A stretch of DNA of 64,000 nucleotides from Actinomyces trachealis (GTDB lineage: Bacteria; Actinomycetota; Actinomycetes; Actinomycetales; Actinomycetaceae): contig NZ_CP065027.1 of the NCBI RefSeq assembly GCF_015711475.1, positions 1,364,001 to 1,428,000 on the forward strand, given 5' to 3'. Below are positions 7,516-58,406 of the stretch, piece by piece (position 1 is the first letter of the stretch; each line of letters opens with the position of its first letter). Made by a program: the position numbers and the translations under genes. The notes beneath the pieces were generated by a model. The model had not been told where the DNA came from, did no database searches, and saw only the letters and a list, made by a program, of their open reading frames with translations.

Positions 7516-7906
7516 CTAGGAAGTACCTTCCACACTAGCAACACCATTGATCGGCGTCATCGTGTGGAGAGAACCTGTGAGATGACTGAAAGACGCCATA
7601 AAACTCATGCAAAAAAGAGCCATTCGCGATGTGTGGTGGAACACGTCGGCTCTCGCATCGGACGTAGGTCATTGCCCTGCCCGTCACCCGGAGACAGTAG
7701 GATCCCTGGTACGTGCGTACCACGCTCTGGCTGCCATCATGATCTGCGATATTGCCCGGTGGCAGGTGGCAGGCAGATCCGAGAACAAGCAACCCTTGAT
7801 GGGGATACGTGGTTAATGAGGTAGTTCTTGCCCACCCTGATCTGCCCACGAGGCGAAATAGGATACGGGGCCCAAGGTCCTGGAAAGAGCCTTCACGCGT
7901 ACCGCG
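7516..7906. other. Gene-free stretch upstream of the ABC operon
   Basis: About 390 bases with mixed, lower GC than the surroundings and no convincing frame on either strand. It must hold the promoter for the minus-strand ABC operon near 7520-7600, but I see no clear -35/-10 pair. The right part (7600-7850) may be residual sequence from the transfer that brought the operon. Confidence 0.4.
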
Positions 7907-9079
7907 TCAGTCCAGGTCCACGCCCAGCACCCCGGCCACATCCGGCTGAAAATAGCCCGGTCCTTTGAGGACCTTACCGTCCTCGCGGTAGACCGGCCGC
8001 CCATCAGCCCCGAGCTTGGACATGTTGGAGCGCTGGACCTCACTGAGCACGGCTGCCAGGTTGATCCCGGTCTCCAGCGCCATGCCGTAGATGACGTAGA
8101 CCAGGTCCGCCAGAGCGTCGGCCGTCTCCACCGTGTCCCGGGCGCCGTCGTCAGCGGCCACGGCCCTGGCCACCGCCGCCTCAATCTCGCTGCGCGCAGC
8201 CGGGCCGTAGACCGCGCCGACCAGCTCGCCGAACTCCTCGGCGATCAGGCTCATGCGCATGTGGAGGCTAGAGCGGTCCAGGCTCGGACCGTCCACCTGG
8301 ACCGGCAGACCGTAGACGCGGTGGAAGCACCGCACCAAGGCCTCCGGATCGTCGCCCTCACGCCGCCCCACGTCGTCGAGCGCGACCAGCGGCGTGGAGG
8401 AGCCGATTGTGTGAGCGCTGCCGTGACCACGGCCGCCAGGAGCCGACGACGTCGGCTGCGGGCCGTCCCAGGGAGCTCGCGGCTCGCGCAGGTCACCGGC
8501 GAGCAGGGAGCCGACCCACTCGTCCATGACCCGGCCGTCTTTGACCGCCACGCCGCGGCGTAGGCCCTCACGCACGAAGCCCAGGCGCCACACCGCCCGC
8601 CATGAGGCCCAGTTGGGCACCCCGTCCTCGATCCAGCACGACCAGCCCAGCCGTCGCAGAACCAGCGGCCCGTCAGGGTCGAGGACCAGGTCGACCACGG
8701 CCTCAAGCGCCCGGTGCATGGTACCGCGTCCACGGGCCTCGGGCGCGAGCCAGAAGCCGAGGTCACCACAGCCCTGCCCGCGCGAGCGGACGCCGAGCAT
8801 CCCGACCAGGGTGGCGACGTCGTCGTCCCCCACCTCGCGTATGGCCCAGGTGAACTCCTCGCCGTTCTCCCAGCCAGGTACCACGAGGTCCTTGACAAAG
8901 CTACGCGCATCGGCCTCGGTGTAGGACGAGGGCACGGTAGTCCACCGCTGGATGCCAGGGTCGCGGCAGATCTGTGCGATCCGCGACGTATCCGCCGCCC
9001 CGGGCGTGGACAGGACAAGGGCGGGCAGTGCCCGGCCCTGGTAGGTCGAGGCGGGCACAGAGATCTCGATGGGCTCCAT
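7907..9079 (-). CDS. Fusion: GNAT acetyltransferase plus MazG-like NTP pyrophosphohydrolase
   Basis: 390-residue two-domain protein. Residues 1-200 form a RimJ/RimL-type GNAT domain: LGFWLAPEARGRGTMHRALEAVV holds the acetyl-CoA loop, followed by GFVREGLRRG. After a linker rich in Pro, Gly and Ser (about 200-235), residues 240-390 resemble all-alpha NTP pyrophosphohydrolases, with AEEFGELVGA and, about 45 residues on, DALADLVYVIYG, the paired acidic motifs that bind magnesium. The tail with RSNMSKLG and DGKVLKGPGYFQP is typical of the PRA-PH/MazG-like family that includes dimeric dUTPase-like enzymes. ATG start at 9079. The frame is continuous, so the fusion is real in this sequence. The substrates of both domains are unknown; nucleotide clean-up is an inference. 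Confidence 0.82.
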   Translation of the reverse strand: MEPIEISVPASTYQGRALPALVLSTPGAADTSRIAQICRDPGIQRWTTVPSSYTEADARSFVKDLVVPGWENGEEFTWAIREVGDDDVATLVGMLGVRSRGQGCGDLGFWLAPEARGRGTMHRALEAVVDLVLDPDGPLVLRRLGWSCWIEDGVPNWASWRAVWRLGFVREGLRRGVAVKDGRVMDEWVGSLLAGDLREPRAPWDGPQPTSSAPGGRGHGSAHTIGSSTPLVALDDVGRREGDDPEALVRCFHRVYGLPVQVDGPSLDRSSLHMRMSLIAEEFGELVGAVYGPAARSEIEAAVARAVAADDGARDTVETADALADLVYVIYGMALETGINLAAVLSEVQRSNMSKLGADGRPVYREDGKVLKGPGYFQPDVAGVLGVDLD

Positions 9080-9102: not shown

Positions 9103-9413
9103 TCAGGCCTCCGCAGCCTGTGGTGACATCCCTGCCAGGTTATCCGAGCGCCGACCCTTGCACAGCACCATGATCACCCCTCCGAGGAGGCCATAGATCA
9201 GGGCACCAGGTGCCGAAGACGTCCGCGAACCAGCCCACGATGGGCGGGGAGACAAGCATGATGCGGCGCGCAGGCCAGGGACGCCGTCAGCTGCCGCGAT
9301 GTCCACAGGAACCGCCACGGCGCAACCCGCGCCCGCAATGACCATGCCCAGCATAGTGCCAGCCACCGCCCCCAGGCGAAGCGGAAGCTGGTGATGGTAA
9401 AGGCCCCAGACAT
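9103..9413 (-). pseudogene. Remnant of an MFS transporter C-terminus
   Basis: Three reading frames together give fragments of a polytopic transporter. One frame has MSGAFTITSFRFAWG, a second continues AVAGTMLGMVIAGAG, a third holds SPPIVGWFADVFG, and the second resumes GALIYGLLGGVIMVL before a hydrophilic tail. SPPIVGWFADVFG followed by two helices is typical of the last segment of major facilitator proteins. At least two frameshifts and the loss of most of the protein mark it as dead. It lies directly beyond the 3' end of the tRNA-Leu gene. Confidence 0.6.
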
Positions 9414-9441
9414 CCTGCCTGGCCGGGACCTTCGCTGCGGG

Positions 9442-9529
9442 TGTCCGAGGGGGGACTTGAACCCCCACGCCCGTTTAATAAGGCACTAGCACCTCAAGCT
9501 AGCGCGTCTACCTATTCCGCCACTCGGAC
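9442..9529 (-). tRNA. tRNA-Leu, anticodon GAG
   Basis: 88-nt class II tRNA. The acceptor stem GTCCGAG pairs with CTCGGAC. The anticodon arm CTAGC-TTGAGGT-GCTAG gives anticodon GAG, reading CUC/CUU. A long variable arm and the T arm GGGGG-TTCAAGT-CCCCC are present. The 3' CCA is not encoded. Leucine identity follows from the anticodon and the long variable arm. Confidence 0.96.
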
Positions 9530-9624
9530 TTGTCTCGCTGACCGGGAGGACCAGCCCCTTACAGCGGGAAAAAACCTAGCACGGGCGCTGCGGCAACACA
9601 CAATCTGGGGGCACGTGCCCTTGG

Positions 9625-10518
9625 TCACAAGGACTCTGTGCTGATCCTGGCGGCCATGGACCAGCTCCGACCCGGCTCAATCACTGGCGCGTCCTGGCAG
9701 GCTGCCGCCGTCTCCACGCACAGGAAACGCGGAAACTCGTCGGCAGCCAGATCAGTCATGCCTTTGGAGGCGGTCGACCAGGGGTTCCAGATCACCGTGG
9801 TCGGCGAGTTGACGCCCTCCACAACGACGCTGCGGGCGCTGCCAGGGTCGGTGACCCGCACGGTCTCGCTGGAGCGGTACACGCGGTCCACCGGGCCACG
9901 TACCCGCAGCGGCCCCTCCTGCTTCCGGCCAGAGACGCCATCCTCCGTGTACTCTGCGCCCTCGATGCCGGTAACCACACAGGCCGTGACATCATGAACG
10001 GCCAGGTAGGAGTGCAGTGCGGCCTCCACCAGGCGCGGCTCGGTGCCGGTGTTGCGCAGGGACAGGCTCATGGTGAGCTGCTCGCCGATCTCCACCTCGT
10101 ACATGGCTGAGATAGAGTCGTGCTCAAGAGTGAGCAACGCCCGGACGCCACCGGTAGGCGTGCTCTGCACGGTGCGCAGGTCCCAGGTCATGGTGCGGGC
10201 CCAGCCGTGCCTGGGGCGGGAGGTGCCGTTCGGGCCGACGCCGAACCACGGCAAGCAGAGCGGGACGCCACCGCGGATGCCTGTCTCACCGTCGAAAACC
10301 GCTTTGCGGGACAGGAAGAGCACCGGTTTACCGCCGCGAGGCACCCAGGAGGTCAGGTGGGCGCCAAAGAGGTACAGCTCTGCGCTGCCAGCGGGGGCAT
10401 CCACCAGGAGGCGCTGCTCACCACCCCTCCCCGGACCGAGCACGGCCGTGCGAGGTAGGGCGGCCGGGGCGTAGCCGGTGCTGCGGGGCGACGCGGCGGG
10501 GCCGTTTGAGGTGGTCAT
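9625..10518 (-). CDS. D-hexose-6-phosphate mutarotase (aldose 1-epimerase family)
   Basis: About 297 residues, in the YeaD-like branch of the aldose 1-epimerase superfamily. Visible landmarks are YLFGAHLTSWVP, GIRGGVPLCLPWFG and PRHGWAR, with the catalytic histidine, then TVIWNPWSTASKGMTDLA and FLCVETAA, with the acidic region near the C-terminus. These match proteins that interconvert alpha and beta anomers of glucose-6-phosphate. No signal peptide, so cytoplasmic. I prefer the ATG at 10518 (MTTSNGP); a GTG at 10527 in frame is possible. Divergent from the HAD-AI-2E gene with a gap of about 55 bases. Confidence 0.87.
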   Translation of the reverse strand: MTTSNGPAASPRSTGYAPAALPRTAVLGPGRGGEQRLLVDAPAGSAELYLFGAHLTSWVPRGGKPVLFLSRKAVFDGETGIRGGVPLCLPWFGVGPNGTSRPRHGWARTMTWDLRTVQSTPTGGVRALLTLEHDSISAMYEVEIGEQLTMSLSLRNTGTEPRLVEAALHSYLAVHDVTACVVTGIEGAEYTEDGVSGRKQEGPLRVRGPVDRVYRSSETVRVTDPGSARSVVVEGVNSPTTVIWNPWSTASKGMTDLAADEFPRFLCVETAAACQDAPVIEPGRSWSMAARISTESL

Positions 10519-10572
10519 GGGGCACACGCTAGTAGGCTTGGCCTGTCAAGGTGGCGCGACTGAGGAGGGAGC

Positions 10573-12666
10573 ATGAGGCTGGCCAGTCTGGGGCGTGTCC
10601 TGCGTCAACCACGTCCGGCAGCACCAACGCGTGAGCCCGCGCAGCCCCTGACGCTCTCCCCCGCACCCACGGCCGTGCTGTTTGACCTTGACGGAACCCT
10701 CACTGACTCCGCGCCCGTGATCTTGGAGACGCTGCGTGTCACCTACAAGGAGCTGGGAATGGAGGTTCCCGGAGATGAAGAGCTCATGCGTTACGTGGGG
10801 CCACCGCTGTCTGAGGGGTTCCGTCTGAATGCTGGTCTCGAGGGGGAGCGCAACGCGGAGGCGGTCAGCACCTACCGAAGCCACTACCGGCAGATCATGC
10901 ACACCGCTGAGCTCTACCCGGGGGCACGCCACCTCCTGGAGGCCCTGGAGGCTGCTGCGGTGCCCGTGGCGCTAGCCACCTCCAAGAACGAGTCCCTGGC
11001 GCGGCACATTATTGAGTCCTACGGCTTAGCTCCTTACTTCACGGTGATCGCCGGGGCTGGCGACGGTGACACAGGCGGCACCAAGTCTGAGGTGGTGCGT
11101 TCCGCGTTGGACCGCCTGTCCGCAGCCGGAGCCGACGTCAGCCACCCAGTGCACGTGGGTGACCTCGCGCATGATGTGGAGGGTGCCCGGAAACAAGGCG
11201 TAGACTGCGTAGGTGTCCTTTGGGGCTATGGCAGCCCGGAGTCGCTACAGGGAGCTGTGGCGCTTGCGGAGACTCCTTCCGAGCTGGCTGTGCTCCTGGG
11301 GGTCGGGCATTCCGCGCGGGTCGAGCACGGCGTCCGAGGAGGCACTTTAGGGCGTGTCAGTTCCGGTATCTCAGGACTTGGATCAAGTCTCTTAACCGGG
11401 CTGGCCGAGGTGGAGCGCGTGTGGCAGGAGAACCGGCGTGTAGGCGCGCGGCACTATCTGGTAGGCCACCAAACCGACACCAACCAGGACACGGAGTACG
11501 CTGCGCGTTTCCCCCTGCAGGAGACTGCACCGCCGTCGCCCGGACGGGTGCTGGACACACTGCCCACCTGGCTGGTGCGCGGCGGTCTGGGCGCCTGGCT
11601 GACGATCGGCCTGGTAATTGCCATCGGTATGGTCTTCTTTGCGACCTCCAAGATCGTGCCCGTGTTTGTGGGCCTGTTCATCGCCCTGGTGATGACCTCG
11701 ATCCTGAACCCGCTTACATCGCTATTGTCACGATTCCTGCCGCGTTACCCGGCGGCGGTCCTGTCCCTGCTGATTGCCTTAGGTGGACTCTCCGGGCTGG
11801 TTTTCTACGTGGTGAACTCAGTGGTGAACCAGTGGAGTGTCCTAGCCCTTGAGCTCTCCAACGGCCTAGACACGGTTATTGCCTTCCTGGAGCACGGCCC
11901 TTTGCCCTTCCATGTGTCTCAGCAGCAGTTAAGTCATCAGCTAGCGGCTTGGCTAGAACAGGGACAGAACTACCTGCGCTCCAACGCTCCCACCCTGGCC
12001 ACGGAGGTGCTCTCCAACGCCCGGACTGTGGTAGACGTTTTCGCGGTGTTGGCCCTCGCCCTGTTCACAAGTATCTTCTTCTTGGCCTCCGGTGCACGCA
12101 TGTGGCGCTGGTTCCTGGAGGAGTTGCCGGTGCACTTGCGCGGCAAGGTACATCAGGCCGCTGGAGCGGGCTGGTACACCTTCTCCGGCTACGCCCGCGG
12201 TACCGTCCTGGTGGCTTTGACTGACGCGATCATGGCTGGCGTTTTCCTGCAGTTTGTGGGGGTGCCCCTAGCCGCGCCTCTGGCAGTGCTGGTGTTTATT
12301 GGTGCCTTCATCCCAATTATTGGTGCACCTGCCGCGATGATTATTGCGATGCTGGTGGCGCTCGCCTCTGGCGGCCTAGTAAAGGCAATTGTGGTGGGCC
12401 TGGGGGTGGCGATTATCGGTCAAATTGAGGGGCATATCCTCCAGCCCTTCATCATGGGCCGTCAGGTTTCCCTGCACCCGGTGGTAGTAATCATCGCGGT
12501 GGCGGTAGGCACCTATGCTGCTGGACTGCTGGGAGCGATCGTGGCGGTACCATTGATCAGCGTATTGTGGTCCGTTTACGCCGAGCTGCGGGTCAAGGAG
12601 CCTCCGATCAGCGGTGCGTTACCTGATTTTCGCACCTCGCGGGGAAGCACCTTGGATCAGGCCTGA
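10573..12666 (+). CDS. Fusion: HAD phosphatase plus AI-2E/PerM-family membrane protein
   Basis: 697 residues in one uninterrupted frame. Residues 34-245 are a HAD hydrolase of the phosphoglycolate phosphatase type: FDLDGTLTD (nucleophile D38, acid D40), a Ser/Thr in ALATSKNE, and HVGDLAHDVEGA. A hydrophilic linker follows (about 250-335). Residues 335-685 form an AI-2E/PerM-family protein with about eight membrane helices and the conserved FIGAFIPIIGAPAAMIIAM and EGHILQPFIMGRQVSLHP. In other actinobacteria these families are normally separate genes. The soluble N-terminus should sit in the cytoplasm. The substrate of either half is unknown. ATG start with GGAGGG just upstream. Confidence 0.85.
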   Translation: MRLASLGRVLRQPRPAAPTREPAQPLTLSPAPTAVLFDLDGTLTDSAPVILETLRVTYKELGMEVPGDEELMRYVGPPLSEGFRLNAGLEGERNAEAVSTYRSHYRQIMHTAELYPGARHLLEALEAAAVPVALATSKNESLARHIIESYGLAPYFTVIAGAGDGDTGGTKSEVVRSALDRLSAAGADVSHPVHVGDLAHDVEGARKQGVDCVGVLWGYGSPESLQGAVALAETPSELAVLLGVGHSARVEHGVRGGTLGRVSSGISGLGSSLLTGLAEVERVWQENRRVGARHYLVGHQTDTNQDTEYAARFPLQETAPPSPGRVLDTLPTWLVRGGLGAWLTIGLVIAIGMVFFATSKIVPVFVGLFIALVMTSILNPLTSLLSRFLPRYPAAVLSLLIALGGLSGLVFYVVNSVVNQWSVLALELSNGLDTVIAFLEHGPLPFHVSQQQLSHQLAAWLEQGQNYLRSNAPTLATEVLSNARTVVDVFAVLALALFTSIFFLASGARMWRWFLEELPVHLRGKVHQAAGAGWYTFSGYARGTVLVALTDAIMAGVFLQFVGVPLAAPLAVLVFIGAFIPIIGAPAAMIIAMLVALASGGLVKAIVVGLGVAIIGQIEGHILQPFIMGRQVSLHPVVVIIAVAVGTYAAGLLGAIVAVPLISVLWSVYAELRVKEPPISGALPDFRTSRGSTLDQA

Positions 12667-21083: not shown

Positions 21084-22334
21084 TCAGTCATAGCGACCCT
21101 CCAGCCACCACCTTCCTTCTCGCACCAGCAGCAATCCCTGCCCACTGCGCGTGACAACTTGCAGGTAGGCGCGCCGGTGAGCCCCGCCAGGACGCCACCA
21201 TCCCTCGCTGACCGGCCAAGGCCCCACCCAGAAAACCAACCTCCTGCTCGCCAGCGTTAGGTCCTTTCTTCAATCCGCAGCACCTTGGGCACACCATCCA
21301 GTTGCCCATGGATGTCAACGCCTAGGTCCTGCCCGTCGGGGCCCTCCAAGTGGGCGGGCGCCGGGATGGACAGGACGACGGCGAGAGATGGTGCTGGCAG
21401 CACACCGCATCAGCTCTGAGGCAACTGAGCCACTTTGGGCCGCGATTGCGTGCCAGCCAGCGCCTCACCCTAGGGCAGCAGGTACACCCGCCCGCGCGGG
21501 TCCCAGCCAGCCTCCACCACTGGCCGGAGAACAGACCCCGGACCTACCCGGGCCTCAACCCGCTCCACGGCCCGGCTGGCGCCCATGCGCCCCTGGCCGG
21601 GACTACAGCCCCCTCTGCTCCGTCCTGGCCGGGTGCAGGTCCAAGGCGGCGAGGTTAAGACGCACCAACGGGGAGGCTGGCCCTTCTCCCCCGCCTGACA
21701 GCCAACCTTCCAGCTGCCAACGGACCCGGTTGGTCACGTCTGACGGCGTCGGCACACCGTCCAGGACCCAGCTGCGGCTGTGCTCCAAGCCGTTCTCGCA
21801 GACGGCCTGCACCTGCAGGCGTCCGGCAGCCAGTCCCCGCCGCAAGAGCAGCTCGCACAGAGATTCCGCCAAGGACCGGGAGGTGAAGGCAGCCCGGTCT
21901 GAGCGTTCCACCGGTGGGTCCAGCTCACACTCGACCTGTGCGTCAGGGGCGGGACGCTGCCGGGAGGGGGAGCACGCTTCCTTACCGGAGGCGAGCAGGT
22001 GCAAAAGCAAACCGGTGAAGCCAAAACGGGCCGTCACGTCCCGGCCGGGCAGTGCCGCTAAGTCACCTAGACGGCGTAGCCCCAGGCGGGAGAAGGTCTC
22101 TATGAGAGTCTTGGCCTCCTGGCGCACCTGCCTGGTGGTCAAAGCTGCTCATGGGCCAGGGGGCCAAGAACTCGACTGCCTCCCCAACGGGCACTGGCAC
22201 TCCACGTCTTGCTGCCAGCACAGCCCCCAGCAGCGACTCAGCTACGCCTACCTGCCCCTCAACCCCGGTGCGCTCGGTGACTGCCTCAGTTGTGCGGGCC
22301 GCCAGCAGGTGCCCGCACAGAGGAAGCAACAGTC
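21084..22334 (-). pseudogene. imuB: Decayed imuB (Y-family polymerase-like, SOS mutagenesis)
   Basis: Fragments of actinobacterial ImuB occur in order on the minus strand in different frames: VGVAESLLGAVLAARRG and VEFLAPWPMSSF near 22150-22260. Next is FSRLGLRRLGDLAALPGRDVTARFG in 22020-22110, then the central block to 21603. The C-terminal signature VVTRSGQGLLLVREK is near 21130, and the expected ending LEGRYD is in another frame with TGA at 21084-21086. The N-terminal catalytic palm appears to be missing between this and imuA'. Several frameshifts are needed to join the pieces. The left boundary with imuA' is approximate. Confidence 0.85.
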
Positions 22335-22928
22335 AGGGAGACGACAAGACAGTCTGGCACCCCCTGCGAGCTGACGACCAAGGAATGGGCGCCTTCCCAA
22401 GGGCCGTCGGTGGAGGAGGCAAGCCTCACGGTCGCGCACCCGCGCCAGCAGGGAGCGGCGTTCTCGTGCTCGCAGGCGTGAGGCAGCAGAAGCGGTGACC
22501 AGCAGGACGTCTACGCCGTCAAGCAGCGCCCCTAGGACCGGCAGCAGATGTGCTCCAGTGCGCTCCCCCGTGGAGACGTAGACCACCCGGCTCAGGTCCA
22601 GCCCTAGCTCGACGGCGGCGCACCAGCCCAGGTCCTCACCACCCAGGACCGCACACCAGCCGTCGCCTTGGATTTTGGCGGTCAGTGCCAGCAGTACGGT
22701 GCTGGAGTCGACTATCCGGGTCACGCCTACTGGTAGCTGCGCCAATGTGGTGCCGTCGTCAGCGGCGGGGTCCGTCAGAGGCGCTGACAGGCTGCGTTCC
22801 CGCATCGAACGCAGGCCTGTGCACTCCTCCGCGTGCGCCAGTGCCGCGCGGGCAAGCGTGAGGCGGTTGGTGACATCTGCCGTAACCACCTTCCCCGCGG
22901 AGGAACGTTCCCCAGCCACGTTGAGCAC
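22335..22928 (-). pseudogene. Decayed imuA' (RecA/SulA-like accessory of SOS mutagenesis)
   Basis: The frame from GTG 22928 reads about 165 residues of an ImuA'-like protein (LTLARAALAHAEECTG, GVTRIVDSSTVLLALTA, GWCAVLGGEDLGWCAAVELGLDLSRVVYV, ALLDGVDVLLVTASAASRLRARER). Near 22420 it shifts into a nonsense Arg/Leu-rich tail. The original C-terminus is only partly visible in other frames. It is the first gene of the former imuA'-imuB-dnaE2 cassette and still has a full LexA box in front of it. The Walker-like region is not well preserved. Confidence 0.78.
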
Positions 22929-25103: not shown

Positions 25104-25129
25104 TCAAACGTTTGACTCGTTGCTATACT
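25104..25129 (+). promoter_or_regulatory. LacI-type operator and -10 element of the MFS-PfkB-PI-PLC operon
   Basis: TCAAACGTTTGA (25104-25115) is a perfect 12-bp palindrome with central CG, typical of LacI/GalR operators. TATACT (25124-25129) is a good -10 element. The operator overlaps the region between -35 and -10, suitable for repression by the LacI-type protein encoded at the end of the operon. The -35 is not obvious. Confidence 0.65.
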
Positions 25130-25237
25130 TGACATTCGCGTCCTGACCTCACTCCTGAGGCTCTGCCGCCAGCGCATCGCCGTGCCAGCGACCGAACGCG
25201 CCTGTCCCACCCCTTCCGTCACCAAGAAGGAGCTTCA

Positions 25238-26623
25238 ATGAAGAAGCTACTGAGTTCCTTCGGCTTCAACCCCAGGACCTTCATCCAACTGCTGTTCATA
25301 ACCGTCAACGCCCAACTGCTCTACGCCTTCTGGGACATCCGCAACACACTCCCCAAGGACTTCCCCATCGCCATGGGGGTCACGGACGCCCAAGCCGGGC
25401 GCCTTTACTCCATGCAGGGCCTGGTCATCATCCTGGGCACGATCCTGCTGGGCTGGATCGGCGACCGCTTCCAAGTCCGCACCATCATGGTGCTCACCAC
25501 CCTCGGCGTCGGCACAATCTCCCTGCTCATCTCAGTCTTCTCCCCGAACCTGTCCTTCGGTGTGCTGCTTGTCTGCTTCTTCCTCATGCTGCTGCTGAGC
25601 GAGGTGCTCTTCAAACCAGCCAACTTCAAGGCCGTGCGCACCTCCACCAGTGAGGAGCACCAGGGCGCAGCCTTCGGATTCTTCGAGTTCGGCCGCGGAT
25701 TACTCGCCTTCCTCGTCTCCCTGCTGTGGACAGCACTCATCGCCATGGGCGCCAACTCCCGCGTCATCATGCTCACCGGCTCGGCGATCGTCCTTGCCAC
25801 AGCGGTCATGGTCTTCTGGGCGGCACCGAAGAACACCCGCGTCGCCGATGAGGAGGAGACCATCAACACCTCCACCATCGATGCAATCAAGGGAATTGGA
25901 CAAGTCGTCAAACTCCCTGTCGTCTGGGTCGTCGGCCTTAACGTCTTCTGCGTCTACGGCACCTTCGTCGCCGCCGGCACGTACTTCGCCCGCTTCCTCC
26001 AGGCCGGCTACGGCTCCTCAGCCCTGGTCGCTGCGGTCTTTTCCACCGTCGTCATCGGCCTGAGGATGCTGCCCTTGGTATCCTCCGTGCTCGTGGAGAA
26101 GGTCTTCCAGTCAACCTCCCACTTCATGCGGTTCATGTCGGCGCTCCTCGTGCTCATCCTGCTCAGCGTCGCCGAGATCTTCCTGACCCACCCGGCGTCT
26201 GTCACAAGCTTCCCCGCCGGTGAGGCGCCCGAGGGAATCATCTCCAAGGGGCTGCTCATCACCCTCATGGCGCTGATGCTCATCGCCTCAGGCTGCTGCT
26301 TCATGATCCGCGGCGTCTACTACGCACCTATCGGGGAGTTCAACGTCCCACCCAAACAGTCCTCTGCCGCCATGTCCTTCGCCATCACCCTCGGGTATGT
26401 GCCCGCCCTACTAGGGCCGATCGTCTTCGGCGGGCTTATCAAGCCCTCCATCGAAGACGACGACGGCAAGATCGTCACCGAGATCCTCACCCCCACCTCT
26501 ACCCTAGGCGCGGCCTTCCTCGGCCTGGCGGCGTTGGCCGCCATCGCATTCTGCCTGTCCACAGTGCTCATCCGGCTCAAGGATCGCCAAGATCACGCCG
26601 AGCAAGCCGAGGCGCGCGCATGA
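25238..26623 (+). CDS. Major facilitator superfamily transporter
   Basis: 461 residues with 12 predicted helices. The loop 2-3 motif is GWIGDRFQVRTIM (MFS signature G-x3-D-R). A long central loop carries ADEEETINTSTIDA (about residues 205-220). The C-terminal half contains FMIRGVYYAPIGEFNVPPKQS. Overall look and length fit MFS uptake permeases for organic phosphates, sugars or nucleosides, but the subfamily is uncertain. ATG at 25238 follows AAGGAGCTT. Its stop overlaps the PfkB start (ATGA), so transport and kinase are coupled. It probably imports the substrate of the two following enzymes. Confidence 0.88.
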   Translation: MKKLLSSFGFNPRTFIQLLFITVNAQLLYAFWDIRNTLPKDFPIAMGVTDAQAGRLYSMQGLVIILGTILLGWIGDRFQVRTIMVLTTLGVGTISLLISVFSPNLSFGVLLVCFFLMLLLSEVLFKPANFKAVRTSTSEEHQGAAFGFFEFGRGLLAFLVSLLWTALIAMGANSRVIMLTGSAIVLATAVMVFWAAPKNTRVADEEETINTSTIDAIKGIGQVVKLPVVWVVGLNVFCVYGTFVAAGTYFARFLQAGYGSSALVAAVFSTVVIGLRMLPLVSSVLVEKVFQSTSHFMRFMSALLVLILLSVAEIFLTHPASVTSFPAGEAPEGIISKGLLITLMALMLIASGCCFMIRGVYYAPIGEFNVPPKQSSAAMSFAITLGYVPALLGPIVFGGLIKPSIEDDDGKIVTEILTPTSTLGAAFLGLAALAAIAFCLSTVLIRLKDRQDHAEQAEARA

Positions 26624-27585
26624 GCATCCTCACCCCTGAGCCACCCCAGCGCTTCGACACCCAGGTCATCGGGCCGGTCTGCGTAGACATCAACATCGAC
26701 GCCGAGGGCCGGGCCTCACAGGTCGTCGGCGGCGCCGCGATCTGCGCGGCAGCAGCTGCCGCCTCACTCGGGCACGAGGTAGAGGCGGTTGTGTCTCTCG
26801 CCAAGGAGGACACCGGGATGCTGTCGCGCTTGCCCGCACCCGTGCGTCACGTCGTCGCCGTCACCTCTGAGCAGACTTCCTCGATCCGCAATGTCTACGC
26901 CACCGCGGACCAGGAACGCCGCGTCTCCACCGCCCTAGCACAGGCCGACCCGATCTCGGCGCGGGACATCCCGTCCCACACGGTCTCGGTGCGCCACCTT
27001 GCCGGACTCATGGTAGGCGACTACACCCCTGACATCGTCGAGGAGCTATCGGCGCGGGGCCCCCTCGCCGTCGACATGCAGGGATTCATCCGGCAGCGTG
27101 ACCCCGCCACAGGAGAGCTCCGCTTCCGCCACCTCGTGGCCGGACAGGAGTTCTACAACCGCATACGCTTCCTCAAGGTCGATACCGCCGAGGGCGAACA
27201 CCTAACCGGCCGCAGCGACCACCACGAGATCGCCCGCGCCCTGCGAGACCTGGGCGCGTGCGAAATCATGGTGTCGAACGCTGCAGAAATCCTCATCCTC
27301 GACGACGACGGGTTCCACGCCTGCCCGCTGCGTCCACGCAGCCTGGCGGGGCGGACCGGGCGCGGTGACACAGTGTTCTCCGCCTACATCACCGAGAGAG
27401 CCAGCCACCCGGTTGACGACGCCTTACTCACAGCCTGCGCGACAGTGTCCTTGAAGATGGAGACACCCGGACCGCTCAACTGTGAGCGCGCGGACGTGGA
27501 GGACTATCTCAGCCGCTTCTACGCAGATATTCGCGACGGCGCCGGTTGCCAAAGCGTCCTGGAAGGAGTATCCCATGGGAACTAA
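26620..27585 (+). CDS. PfkB-family carbohydrate or nucleoside kinase
   Basis: 321 residues of the ribokinase/PfkB superfamily. Features: GPVCVDINIDAEG at the start, the glycine motif VVGGAAICAAAAAASLGHEV, FLKVDTAEGEHLTG, and the C-terminal anion-hole signature AGRTGRGDTVFSAY with the catalytic Asp. Members phosphorylate sugars, nucleosides or inositol; some characterised members are myo-inositol 3-kinases. The immediate coupling to a PI-PLC-like gene suggests a cyclitol or similar polyol as substrate, which is an inference. The last 11 bases overlap the start of the PI-PLC gene. Confidence 0.88.
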   Translation: MSILTPEPPQRFDTQVIGPVCVDINIDAEGRASQVVGGAAICAAAAAASLGHEVEAVVSLAKEDTGMLSRLPAPVRHVVAVTSEQTSSIRNVYATADQERRVSTALAQADPISARDIPSHTVSVRHLAGLMVGDYTPDIVEELSARGPLAVDMQGFIRQRDPATGELRFRHLVAGQEFYNRIRFLKVDTAEGEHLTGRSDHHEIARALRDLGACEIMVSNAAEILILDDDGFHACPLRPRSLAGRTGRGDTVFSAYITERASHPVDDALLTACATVSLKMETPGPLNCERADVEDYLSRFYADIRDGAGCQSVLEGVSHGN

Positions 27586-28399
27586 GTCCGTTAGCTCTCT
27601 CATCGCGTCACTGTCTGACAGCACTCCCCTGTGCTCGCTGGCCCTTCCCGGCACCCACGACACGATGACGAGCGCCTGCGAGCACCCGTACTACCAGACC
27701 CAGAGCCTATCCCTGGCCGAGCAACTGGAGCAGGGAGTACGCTTCCTTGATATCCGCCTACGCGCCTCGATGGTGGCGGCTCACCGCAAGTGGGTCAGCG
27801 ACATCACAGCCGAGTCAATCCTCAGAGAGCTGCGGGAGCATCTGGAGCGCAACCCCGGGGACGTCGTGCTGGTGAGGTTCCAGAACGCCAATGAGGCCAA
27901 GGACGACTTCGTCGAGTACGGCCACGCGCTCCTGCCCCTCATCGAAGCTAATCGCGACCTGTTCTGGAATCCCTGCACGCACGCTGGGGCCACGCGCTGG
28001 CCAGCCCTCGGCGAGGTGCGGGGCAAGGTCATCGCCTTCGAGTGCACGCCAGCAGAGTTTGGCTTGACGCGCCTCCATGGTGAGCCGTGGGCAGTTGCCT
28101 GGCACGGCAACCCGGGGATCGCCCTCCAGGACGACTGGGACGGACCTGCCGTGCAAAGCAAGCTCTCACAGATCGTTGAGTTCTATCGCGGCGGTGGAAA
28201 CCCGGAGGCACTAGTGCTCAACCACGTCAGCGCCACCAATGGGGTCCTGGGAAACCCTATCGCCTATGCCGACAAGCTCAACCCCCAGGTGCTCGCGATG
28301 CTAGGACAAGGAGGTGGCCGAGGCGTCCTCATCTTTGATTTCATCGACACCGAGATTATCGACGCCGTCTGGCGGGCGACCCTGCGGGGAGTCTCCTGA
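27575..28399 (+). CDS. Cytoplasmic phosphatidylinositol-specific phospholipase C-like protein
   Basis: 274 residues with a PI-PLC X-type TIM barrel. LALPGTHDTMT holds the first catalytic His (H28) and Asp29, VRFLDIRLR holds Asp59 and Arg61, and AAHRKW holds the second His (H70), all at the spacing seen in bacterial PI-PLC. Later LVLNHVSATNG and LIFDFIDTEI fit the end of the barrel. Bacterial PI-PLCs are normally secreted; here there is no signal peptide and the ATG at 27575 follows GGAAGGAG, inside the end of the kinase gene. That implies action on an imported small inositol phosphodiester rather than on membrane lipid, which is an inference. Confidence 0.85.
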   Translation: MGTKSVSSLIASLSDSTPLCSLALPGTHDTMTSACEHPYYQTQSLSLAEQLEQGVRFLDIRLRASMVAAHRKWVSDITAESILRELREHLERNPGDVVLVRFQNANEAKDDFVEYGHALLPLIEANRDLFWNPCTHAGATRWPALGEVRGKVIAFECTPAEFGLTRLHGEPWAVAWHGNPGIALQDDWDGPAVQSKLSQIVEFYRGGGNPEALVLNHVSATNGVLGNPIAYADKLNPQVLAMLGQGGGRGVLIFDFIDTEIIDAVWRATLRGVS

Positions 28400-28436
28400 C
28401 CAGGCAATGATGGTACGCCCGGTGCTCGGGCACGGC

Positions 28437-29402
28437 TCAAGCCGTTCGCCTGCGCACCAGGTGCGTGTCCACCTGGGCCCGGAACGCCGGGGATAAGTCA
28501 CCCTCGGCACGAAGGATCGCCCGCTCGACAGCTAGTTCAGCCACGCCACGGGAGTTGCGGTCCACGGAAGTGAACTCGAAGGCCGCCGAACTCGCGATGC
28601 GGGAGTTGTCAAAGCCAACGAGGCGGATGTCGTCTGGGACGAAAAGCCGCTTGCGTGTGAGCGCCGCCATGACACCGAGCGCGCACTGGTCGTTGTAACA
28701 GACCGCCGCCCCTGCGGTGAGCGGCCCCTCGGCCAGGACTGAGCGCATTGCGGCCCATCCGGCGTCCACGGTCGCGCCTGAGGGGACCACCCGGACCTGG
28801 GCGGAGCTTCCGCTCATCGCCTGCAGGAAGGACTGGCGGCGGTAGCGGGCCGAAGCGGTGGGACCGCCGTCAAAGCAGAGCACCTGCGTTTCGTCGGCAA
28901 GCAGCTCGGCCACCTGCGCCATCCCACTGTCATTGTTGGAGACGATCAGGTCAGCGTCAGGTACAGGAGAGACCTGGCCGATGACGACTGCCGGGATACC
29001 AATACTTTTCAGGTGCTTGGTCGGCACAGATCCAGGGTCGACGACGATGACGGCCTGGGCCCGGAGCTGCGTGACGCGCCCCAGGGCTGCTGCGCCGTCG
29101 CCAGTAGCGGTGTCTTCCATCATGACCAGCCAGCCGCGTGCCTCGGCGGCGGCGGTGATATCCCGGCTGTAGGCGACGTGAAGTTCCTGGCCGATGTCTC
29201 CCACGAGCCCGATGATGCGGGGCTTGGTGGTGCTCAGGAGGGACCCGGCCAGGTCAGTGCGGTAGCCCTGGTCGGCCGCCTCCTGGGCGACCTTCTTCCT
29301 GACGGCAGACGAGATGCGGTCCGATCCTCTCAGCGCCAGGGAGACTGTGGACACTGAAACTCCGAGAGTCTCGGCGATATCACGCATTGTGACCCTGGAC
29401 AT
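28437..29402 (-). CDS. LacI family transcriptional regulator
   Basis: 321 residues. N-terminal HTH TMRDIAETLGVSVSTVSLALRG with the hinge region, followed by a periplasmic-binding-protein-like ligand domain (IIGLVGDIGQELHVAYSRDI, AAVCYNDQCALGVMAAL, LVGFDNSRIAS). ATG 29402 is preceded by GGGAGG; the in-frame ATG at 29423 is less likely. It is convergent with the MFS-PfkB-PI-PLC operon and 37 bases from its end, and a LacI-type palindrome lies in that operon's promoter, so it is probably its repressor, released by the imported compound or a product. Confidence 0.92.
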   Translation of the reverse strand: MSRVTMRDIAETLGVSVSTVSLALRGSDRISSAVRKKVAQEAADQGYRTDLAGSLLSTTKPRIIGLVGDIGQELHVAYSRDITAAAEARGWLVMMEDTATGDGAAALGRVTQLRAQAVIVVDPGSVPTKHLKSIGIPAVVIGQVSPVPDADLIVSNNDSGMAQVAELLADETQVLCFDGGPTASARYRRQSFLQAMSGSSAQVRVVPSGATVDAGWAAMRSVLAEGPLTAGAAVCYNDQCALGVMAALTRKRLFVPDDIRLVGFDNSRIASSAAFEFTSVDRNSRGVAELAVERAILRAEGDLSPAFRAQVDTHLVRRRTA

Positions 29403-57176: not shown

Positions 57177-58406
57177 TCAGTGTTCGGGGATGGTCTCCGC
57201 GGGGGCGACGTCCTGACCGAGTTCGGCCATGAGGCTGGTGAACCAGTCCTGGGTGATGTCGAAGGGCTTGCCTCCAGCGATGCGCGGGAAGGGGATGGCG
57301 GTGAGGGCGTCACCGTTGTCCTCATCGTGGCCGATGACGCCAGGCTCGCCGCGCAGGGCGCAGTCTACGGCCAGGTCGCACATCTGCTTGATGAGGTCCA
57401 GGTCCTCCTGGTTGGCGGCGGCAGCACGCGAGTAGTAGCCGGACTTCTGCACCATGACCTTCTCGGCGCCAATCAGCTGGGCGAACTGCTTGGCGAACCA
57501 CTGACCGGGGTTGATGGTGTCCAGCTTGACGTGACCGAAGGGGTCACGCTGGACCTCCTGGCCTGCGGCCTCCATCTCGGCGATGATCTCGGGTACGCCC
57601 GCTCCCTCGGACAGGAAGATGTTGACGTTGCCCTGCTCATCCATGATGGCCTTGAGGCGCTTAGCCTCGGCGGCCAGGTCCAGCTTCATCTCGGGCAGGA
57701 AGACGGCGTGCACGTCCCAGCGCTCCTTGGCCAGGCCCAGGGAGGGTGCCCACTGTTTGGTGCTGAGCAGCTCGTGGTAGCGGCGGGCGGTCTCGGCGGT
57801 GAGGTAGCCGCAGTTGCGGCCCATGCACTCGTGGACGATCAGCATGCGAGGGTTGGAGCGGTGCTCGCCGATCACGTTGAAGGCAAAGCCCGCGCCCTGT
57901 TCGGCGGCGGTCCAGGCGCCCAGGGACTGGCGGATCGGCACGACGTCGTTGTCAATGGTCTTGGGCAGGCCGACGACGGTGAGTTCGTAGTCGTTCTCGT
58001 GCAGGTAGGCGGCCAGGTCAGCGGCGGTGGTGTTGGTGTCGTCACCACCGATGGTGTGCAGGACGTCAACGCCGTCCTTACGCAGCTGCTCGGCGGCGAA
58101 CTCCAGGGGGTTAACGCCCTCCTTGACCAGGCCACGCTCCACCAGGTTCTTGGCGTTGGTGAGCTTGACGCGGGAGTTGCCGATCGGGGAGCCGCCGAAC
58201 TCGCGCAGCAGGCCAGCGTTCTTGCGGGCCCCCTCGTCGATGACGATGTAGTTGCCGGTGAGCAGGCCGTGGTAGCCGTACTGGTAGGCGATGATCTCAA
58301 CCTCGGGGGCCACCTCGGTGTAGCGCTCGATCAGGTCGCCGACAGCGGCGGACAGGCAGGGGGCGAAACCGCCCGCAGTGAGCAGGGCGACGCGACGGAT
58401 CGTCAT
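57177..58406 (-). CDS. pfp: Pyrophosphate-dependent 6-phosphofructokinase
   Basis: 409 residues. LLTAGGFAPCLSAAVGDLIERY at the start, GGDDTNTTAADLAAYL (the second Asp after GGD is the feature of PPi-using enzymes, against GGDGS in ATP types), GLPKTIDNDVVPI with the conserved Lys, and MGRNCGYLT. It should interconvert fructose-6-phosphate and fructose-1,6-bisphosphate reversibly with pyrophosphate, as in Actinomyces and Propionibacterium. ATG 58406 with AAAGG upstream; the frame to 58445 is not needed. Single gene. Confidence 0.93.
   Translation of the reverse strand: MTIRRVALLTAGGFAPCLSAAVGDLIERYTEVAPEVEIIAYQYGYHGLLTGNYIVIDEGARKNAGLLREFGGSPIGNSRVKLTNAKNLVERGLVKEGVNPLEFAAEQLRKDGVDVLHTIGGDDTNTTAADLAAYLHENDYELTVVGLPKTIDNDVVPIRQSLGAWTAAEQGAGFAFNVIGEHRSNPRMLIVHECMGRNCGYLTAETARRYHELLSTKQWAPSLGLAKERWDVHAVFLPEMKLDLAAEAKRLKAIMDEQGNVNIFLSEGAGVPEIIAEMEAAGQEVQRDPFGHVKLDTINPGQWFAKQFAQLIGAEKVMVQKSGYYSRAAAANQEDLDLIKQMCDLAVDCALRGEPGVIGHDEDNGDALTAIPFPRIAGGKPFDITQDWFTSLMAELGQDVAPAETIPEH

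Follow-up and report, generated by a model that had tools for sequence, protein, structure and literature searches.

We analysed a 64,000-nucleotide stretch of the Actinomyces trachealis genome (contig NZ_CP065027.1, positions 1,364,001 to 1,428,000; hereafter the window), which carries a three-gene operon for a major facilitator superfamily (MFS) transporter, a PfkB-type kinase, and an enzyme of the phosphatidylinositol-specific phospholipase C (PI-PLC) type, with a LacI-type regulator gene beside it. This operon is probably the front end of myo-inositol catabolism, through which a soluble inositol phosphodiester is imported, cut inside the cell, and its inositol freed. The MFS protein would import the diester, most likely glycerophosphoinositol from lipid deacylation, from which the cytoplasmic PI-PLC would produce inositol 1,2-cyclic phosphate, along with glycerol, and then inositol 1-phosphate, Ins(1)P. 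The kinase, which resembles TM0415 of Thermotoga maritima, would interconvert Ins(1)P and inositol with the pyrophosphate/phosphate (PPi/Pi) couple at the place where relatives have an inositol monophosphatase (IMPase). Inositol would then be degraded by iol enzymes encoded elsewhere in the genome, and the LacI protein would repress the operon through one operator.

The gene families are all known. For their combination we found no description among the papers listed in searches of the open-licence PMC literature, in line with the preliminary description of this DNA, whose author knew of no such pathway. Most likely, the genes form a conserved, regulated module for a soluble inositol phosphodiester. 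If so, PI-PLC, known in bacteria as a secreted attacker of membranes, would be a cytoplasmic nutrient enzyme in several phyla, and there would be a route by which bacteria use inositol lipids after deacylation; many of the carriers live in mouths, guts, and animals. The module also highlights a conserved transporter family whose substrate is to be assigned and places PPi kinases of the TM0415 type in a physiological context that can be tested.

Operon organization and regulation

The operon comprises the MFS gene (25238..26623, + strand; PF07690, MFS_1, 67.7 bits), whose product is the predicted importer of the PI-PLC substrate, the gene of the TM0415-related PfkB/ribokinase-family kinase (26620..27585, + strand; PF00294, 42 bits), and the gene of the cytoplasmic, 274-residue PI-PLC-type phosphodiesterase (27575..28399, + strand). 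The tight layout first noted from the DNA alone was borne out by gene calls and Pfam, both in its families and in its overlaps, which are exactly ATGA (26620-26623) between the MFS and kinase genes and 11 bases (27575-27585) between the kinase and PI-PLC genes. The adjacent regulator gene (28437..29402, − strand) was likewise confirmed as LacI-type by its domains PF00356 and PF13377 (Peripla_BP_3), and its likely operator was located in the operon promoter as the palindrome TCAAACGTTTGA, extended ATTCAAACGTTTGACT, at 25104..25115 (no strand assigned). A sigma-70 promoter scan found no promoter, and a terminator scan gave nothing exceeding the chance level.

The regulator has the LacI helix-turn-helix, the periplasmic-binding-like domain, and a putative CG-centred palindromic operator, as expected for its family, and from these features it is predicted to be a local repressor of the operon. 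TCAAACGTTTGA occurs as a single exact copy in the whole 2.53 Mb genome, where base composition alone would give 0.024 copies, and with one mismatch at three more sites. We compared operators in 28 of 31 related loci (see below; L029, L048, and L051 were left out), taking the two best CG-centred palindromes per locus. In four of these 28 loci (L035, L043, L044, and L050), the identical 16-mer precedes the MFS gene, and six others (L022, L023, L024, L027, L033, and L037) have a close variant of it. Among actinobacterial loci, 17 of 20 have a LacI homologue (32-84% identity) near the MFS-PI-PLC pair. The operon is therefore confirmed as a real unit, chance being excluded by the conservation of the gene set across relatives and by the uniqueness of the operator.

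Constant pairing of the transporter with PI-PLC

We searched 151 Actinomycetaceae genomes and, in a second scan of one genome per species, used two peptide patterns taken from a 28-sequence alignment, which gave 31 loci. The pattern scan misses relatives that lack the two peptides, and nine of the 31 loci are probably also in the 151-genome set, so the two counts overlap. PI-PLC is present in 11 of the 151 genomes, and the MFS protein (E <= 1e-40) in exactly the same 11. An MFS homologue adjoins PI-PLC in all 31 loci, and the conserved co-occurrence by which the preliminary description was to be judged is thus found one to one in the family set and at every locus of the scan. Identity to the window's MFS protein is 58-93% in 28 loci and 31-32% in L048 and L051, where the gene lies downstream. 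PI-PLC identity across the loci is 42-80%; of the two proteins, the transporter is thus the better conserved.

Three loci have peculiarities of their own. At L029 (a metagenome-assembled Propionibacteriaceae genome), the MFS gene consists of degenerate pieces only (9195-9665), beside a PI-PLC match without internal stop. At L033 (Actinomyces ruminis), the PI-PLC match is split into two frames (10001-10806), from either a broken gene or a sequencing error. L044, recorded as Tissierella sp. Marseille-P2918, is probably mislabelled, with a PI-PLC at zero branch length from that of Varibaculum cambriense.

A predicted cytoplasmic PI-PLC

The PI-PLC-X Pfam score of the third protein is 22.9, slightly below the cut-off of 23.1, and we assigned the protein to PI-PLC because of its phmmer matches to PDB chains and its predicted structure. 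Both methods give Listeria PI-PLC as the closest solved relative (phmmer E 1.5e-31), and the fold is the TIM barrel of the bacterial calcium-independent group. The protein is 80-81% identical to one from Actinomyces timonensis. Residues H28, R61, H70, and D255 align with the catalytic residues H32, R69, H82, and D274 of Bacillus cereus PI-PLC. All four positions are invariant in the 28-sequence alignment, and the two catalytic histidines reported in the preliminary description are among them (H28 and H70). D29 and D186, counterparts of B. cereus D33 and D198, are also kept. The enzyme is predicted from these residues to cleave phosphoinositol diesters.

The absence of a signal peptide, also reported earlier, holds across the family. 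In 58 of 58 family proteins, 15-30 residues precede the PGTH motif, and none has a signal-like hydrophobic stretch there, vs 21 of 51 distant homologues. This count omits P0014, which lacks the motif, and P0060, which is 37% identical, is on neither list, and has a hydrophobic stretch at its start. Of the two B. cereus tryptophans that insert into membranes, W47 is unaligned and W242 corresponds to L225. The enzyme thus differs from Listeria and B. cereus PI-PLC in having no signal peptide, no interfacial tryptophans, changed pocket residues, and a constant MFS partner. We considered a secreted phospholipase and ruled it out by N-termini and gene context.

Relationship of the kinase to TM0415

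The closest solved relatives of the kinase are TM0415 chains (E 3e-32). All seven mapped residues of the acceptor site are identical, with D23, N91, Q154, R158, I89, S103, and L130 corresponding to TM0415 D11, N78, Q141, R145, I76, S89, and L116. The kinase also shares the RXGRGD motif (here RTGRGD), and its K186, R245, R248, and M280 correspond to TM0415 K171, R229, R232, and M266. It differs from TM0415 in having a serine for T204 and a leucine for F221, and its gene shares an operon with those of PI-PLC and the MFS protein. In nine of nine kinase relatives, the same leucine is found, the RXGRGD motif and the counterparts of K171, R229, R232, and M266 are kept, and the other residues are the same except for L130S and S219T in L047. 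The TM0415-type acceptor site led us to reject an unrelated sugar or nucleoside as the substrate of the kinase, and the protein is instead predicted, from its residues, to be a PPi-linked phosphotransferase acting on myo-inositol and Ins(1)P.

At E <= 1e-30 the kinase occurs in four of the 151 family genomes, every time beside PI-PLC, and at E <= 1e-25 in the window's own genome alone of 396 sampled genomes of the phylum. Homologues at 40-46% identity are found in numbers elsewhere. TM0415 is encoded in an inositol gene cluster, uses PPi and not ATP/ADP, and makes Ins(1)P from inositol, for which its Km is 12 mM; its true acceptor is suspected to be a compound other than inositol (PMC5931981).

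Neighboring genes and the link to inositol

An IMPase gene adjoins the MFS-PI-PLC pair in 15 of the 31 loci, and PF00459 was confirmed in all five IMPase proteins scanned (L030, L031, L032, L035, and L051). In L032 (Aggregatibacter kilianii), the pair is surrounded by iolD, an iolC-DUF2090 fusion, the gene of an RpiR regulator, iolB, IMPase, a gene for a PgtP/UhpC/GlpT-like transporter of the phosphate-ester type, iolA of the methylmalonate-semialdehyde-dehydrogenase type, and genes for an iolG-like dehydrogenase and for a sugar-binding protein. L041 and L042 likewise have iol genes close to the pair, and L048 and L051 have one that resembles iolA. In the family set, iolB exceeds its cut-off in all 11 PI-PLC carriers vs 51 of 140 non-carriers (Fisher 3e-5, ignoring kinship), and iolG, searched in the carriers only, in 11 of 11. 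In the window's genome, iolC, iolB (at 609812), and iolD are grouped at ~608-613 kb, and iolG is also over its cut-off.

Like the Bacillus-type iol pathway, this genome thus has iolB, iolC, iolD, and iolG over cut-offs; free inositol is the entry point of the known pathway, to which a phosphodiester front end would be added here. Bacterial GlpQ/UgpQ cleave glycerophosphodiesters after uptake, and yeast Git1 transports glycerophosphoinositol. Like these systems, our module would take up and use phospholipid head groups left by deacylation, but GlpQ releases glycerol 3-phosphate while PI-PLC would give glycerol and cyclic inositol phosphate.

Some of the neighborhoods contain other genes of note. 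At L052 (Aggregatibacter actinomycetemcomitans SL7469), the IMPase match next to the pair (7849-8550) contains stop codons. In three Selenomonadaceae loci (L045, 10818-13733; L046; L049), a gene for a protein of ~970 residues adjoins the pair; the L045 protein has purple-acid-phosphatase, metallophosphoesterase, and laminin-G-like domains. A second, related copy and a GlpT/UhpT-like transporter lie several kb off. The large protein may serve as an outer component of this route.

Direction of the kinase

The most interesting point of the system is the direction in which the kinase runs. PI-PLC releases the Ins(1)P isomer of inositol phosphate, on which kinase and phosphatase would both act. Because the iol pathway starts with free inositol, the simplest reading is that the kinase may substitute for the phosphatase by running in reverse (Ins(1)P + Pi -> inositol + PPi), with the PPi spent by the cell's own PPi-phosphofructokinase. 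We offer this tentatively and consider it unlikely on balance. Were it true, the phosphate bond that the relatives' phosphatase wastes would be saved as PPi, so that a ribokinase-family enzyme would help catabolism to conserve energy, and TM0415-type enzymes would gain a physiological role.

Across the 31 loci, the kinase is found in nine, IMPase in the 15 noted above, and both together in none. This mutual exclusion gives a Fisher value of 6e-4 on the 31 loci and of ~0.08 after manual merging of the loci into genus-like groups. On the PI-PLC tree, two changes suffice to explain the kinase label and five the phosphatase label; therefore, few independent events support the exclusion. A phosphatase could be missed at L047, whose contig ends within PI-PLC, and at the short loci L024 and L025. 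A pyrophosphate--fructose-6-phosphate 1-phosphotransferase is encoded in the window (57177..58403, − strand; NF005121 equivalog, 721.8 bits vs a cut-off of 395) with GGDDT and PKTIDND motifs, and another phosphofructokinase-family protein of the genome has the ATP-type GGDGS motif. The PPi-dependent gene lies ~29 kb from the operon, outside it, and would be tied to it by the PPi hypothesis alone.

Against the reverse reaction, the equilibrium is uphill by ~10 kJ/mol at standard state and needs low PPi. Furthermore, an IMPase-family gene lies elsewhere in the window's genome, and each of the four family genomes with the kinase carries one or two such genes outside the operon, so that a reverse kinase is less needed. 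A PPi-forming kinase has a precedent in kind in the PPi-acetate kinase of Entamoeba, which mainly makes PPi, presumed to feed PPi-phosphofructokinase, and a word search of the paper on TM0415 found no test of the reverse reaction of this enzyme (PMC5931981).

It is also quite possible, if short of probable, that the kinase runs forward, making Ins(1)P from inositol and PPi or ATP for trapping or biosynthesis, in which case the operon would serve salvage instead of catabolism. Salvage could matter here, as inositol phosphate synthase (PF07994) had no match in the window's genome, an absence that is not firm since the control search also missed Corynebacterium glutamicum, which has such a gene. 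However, iol catabolism depends on free inositol, every one of the 11 carriers has iolB and iolG, a phosphatase takes the place of the kinase in 15 of 31 loci, and actinobacterial phosphatidylinositol synthesis uses Ins(3)P. TM0415 was assayed in the forward direction with PPi, but its product is Ins(1)P and its Km for inositol is 12 mM, both of which count against this reading (PMC5931981). Of the earlier proposal that the kinase phosphorylates inositol, the inositol site is thus kept, whereas the forward direction fits poorly ahead of an iol pathway.

Substrate and alternative readings

Several observations weigh against a front end of inositol catabolism for glycerophosphoinositol. In the pocket of PI-PLC, B. 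cereus K115, R163, and Y200 are replaced by Q103, C157, and W188, so that of the four inositol-pocket residues (K115, R163, D198, and Y200), D198 alone is kept. Listeria PI-PLC aligns a lysine at the K115 position and a residue other than arginine at the R163 position; therefore, the pocket residues are not conserved throughout the group. The MFS protein falls far below the NCBIfam subfamily cut-offs (three families listed; the best, TIGR00897, at 31.6 vs 375 bits), a search of PDB sequences gave no match, and comparison of its predicted model (middling, pLDDT 78.4) showed general MFS likeness only, the top matches, OCT1 and SLC37A4, not being discriminating. In the kinase, one of five PPi-signature residues is changed, since TM0415 F221, which occludes the ATP pocket, is L237; because of this leucine we classify the enzyme as related to TM0415 and treat PPi use as a prediction only. 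Four LacI-bearing loci (L028, L031, L034, and L038) have no matching operator among their two best CG-centred palindromes, and seven of the 31 loci have neither kinase nor IMPase beside the pair. Additionally, iolB is common in the family regardless (62 of 151 genomes), the window's own iol genes lie ~780 kb from the operon (~1389100-1393400), the linkage being seen only in relatives, and none of the operator sites, whether exact or with one mismatch, is found near them.

The substrate may be another soluble phosphodiester, such as a glycosyl-phosphoinositol, an inositol-sphingolipid head group, or another ester of inositol phosphate with an alcohol. The changed pocket positions and the subfamily-specific invariants of the 28 sequences (the NANExKDD motif, W188, and H177) would suit such a diester, but the catalytic residues, D29, and D186 are kept and phosphatidylinositol yields no simpler soluble product than glycerophosphoinositol, and we consider a different substrate somewhat unlikely. 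Transport direction is unreadable from the MFS sequence, which leaves room for export of cyclic inositol phosphate or another product made by PI-PLC from the cell's own phosphatidylinositol; yet in three loci, two from Pasteurellaceae and one from Vibrio, genes of inositol catabolism surround the pair, and iolB and iolG accompany it in 11 of 11 genomes, making export very improbable. We give equally little credence to an enzyme that is exported along some uncommon path to attack the membranes of host or microbial cells, like known bacterial PI-PLCs, with its neighbors only using the products. Listeria PI-PLC, its closest solved relative, is a secreted enzyme, but the N-termini of all 58 family proteins, the absence of both B. 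cereus membrane tryptophans, and the MFS homologue alongside PI-PLC in 31 of 31 loci speak for a cytoplasmic enzyme. Import with cytoplasmic cleavage, feeding inositol metabolism, as put forward in the preliminary description, is thus strongly supported by the pair in 11 of 151 genomes, the IMPase and iol neighbors, and the TM0415-type site; glycerophosphoinositol would be the likeliest substrate, with the replaced pocket residues counting against it.

Other features

Adjoining the iol genes of the same genome, at ~600-606 kb (L085, 1948-8110), we observed a macrolactam cyclase match (NF033561, 91.6 bits vs a cut-off of 300) together with ABC transporter genes, perhaps a lasso-peptide-like cluster. 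In the window itself, two neighboring reading frames at 21603-22928 (− strand) may be pieces of a DNA repair region of the ImuA/ImuB type.

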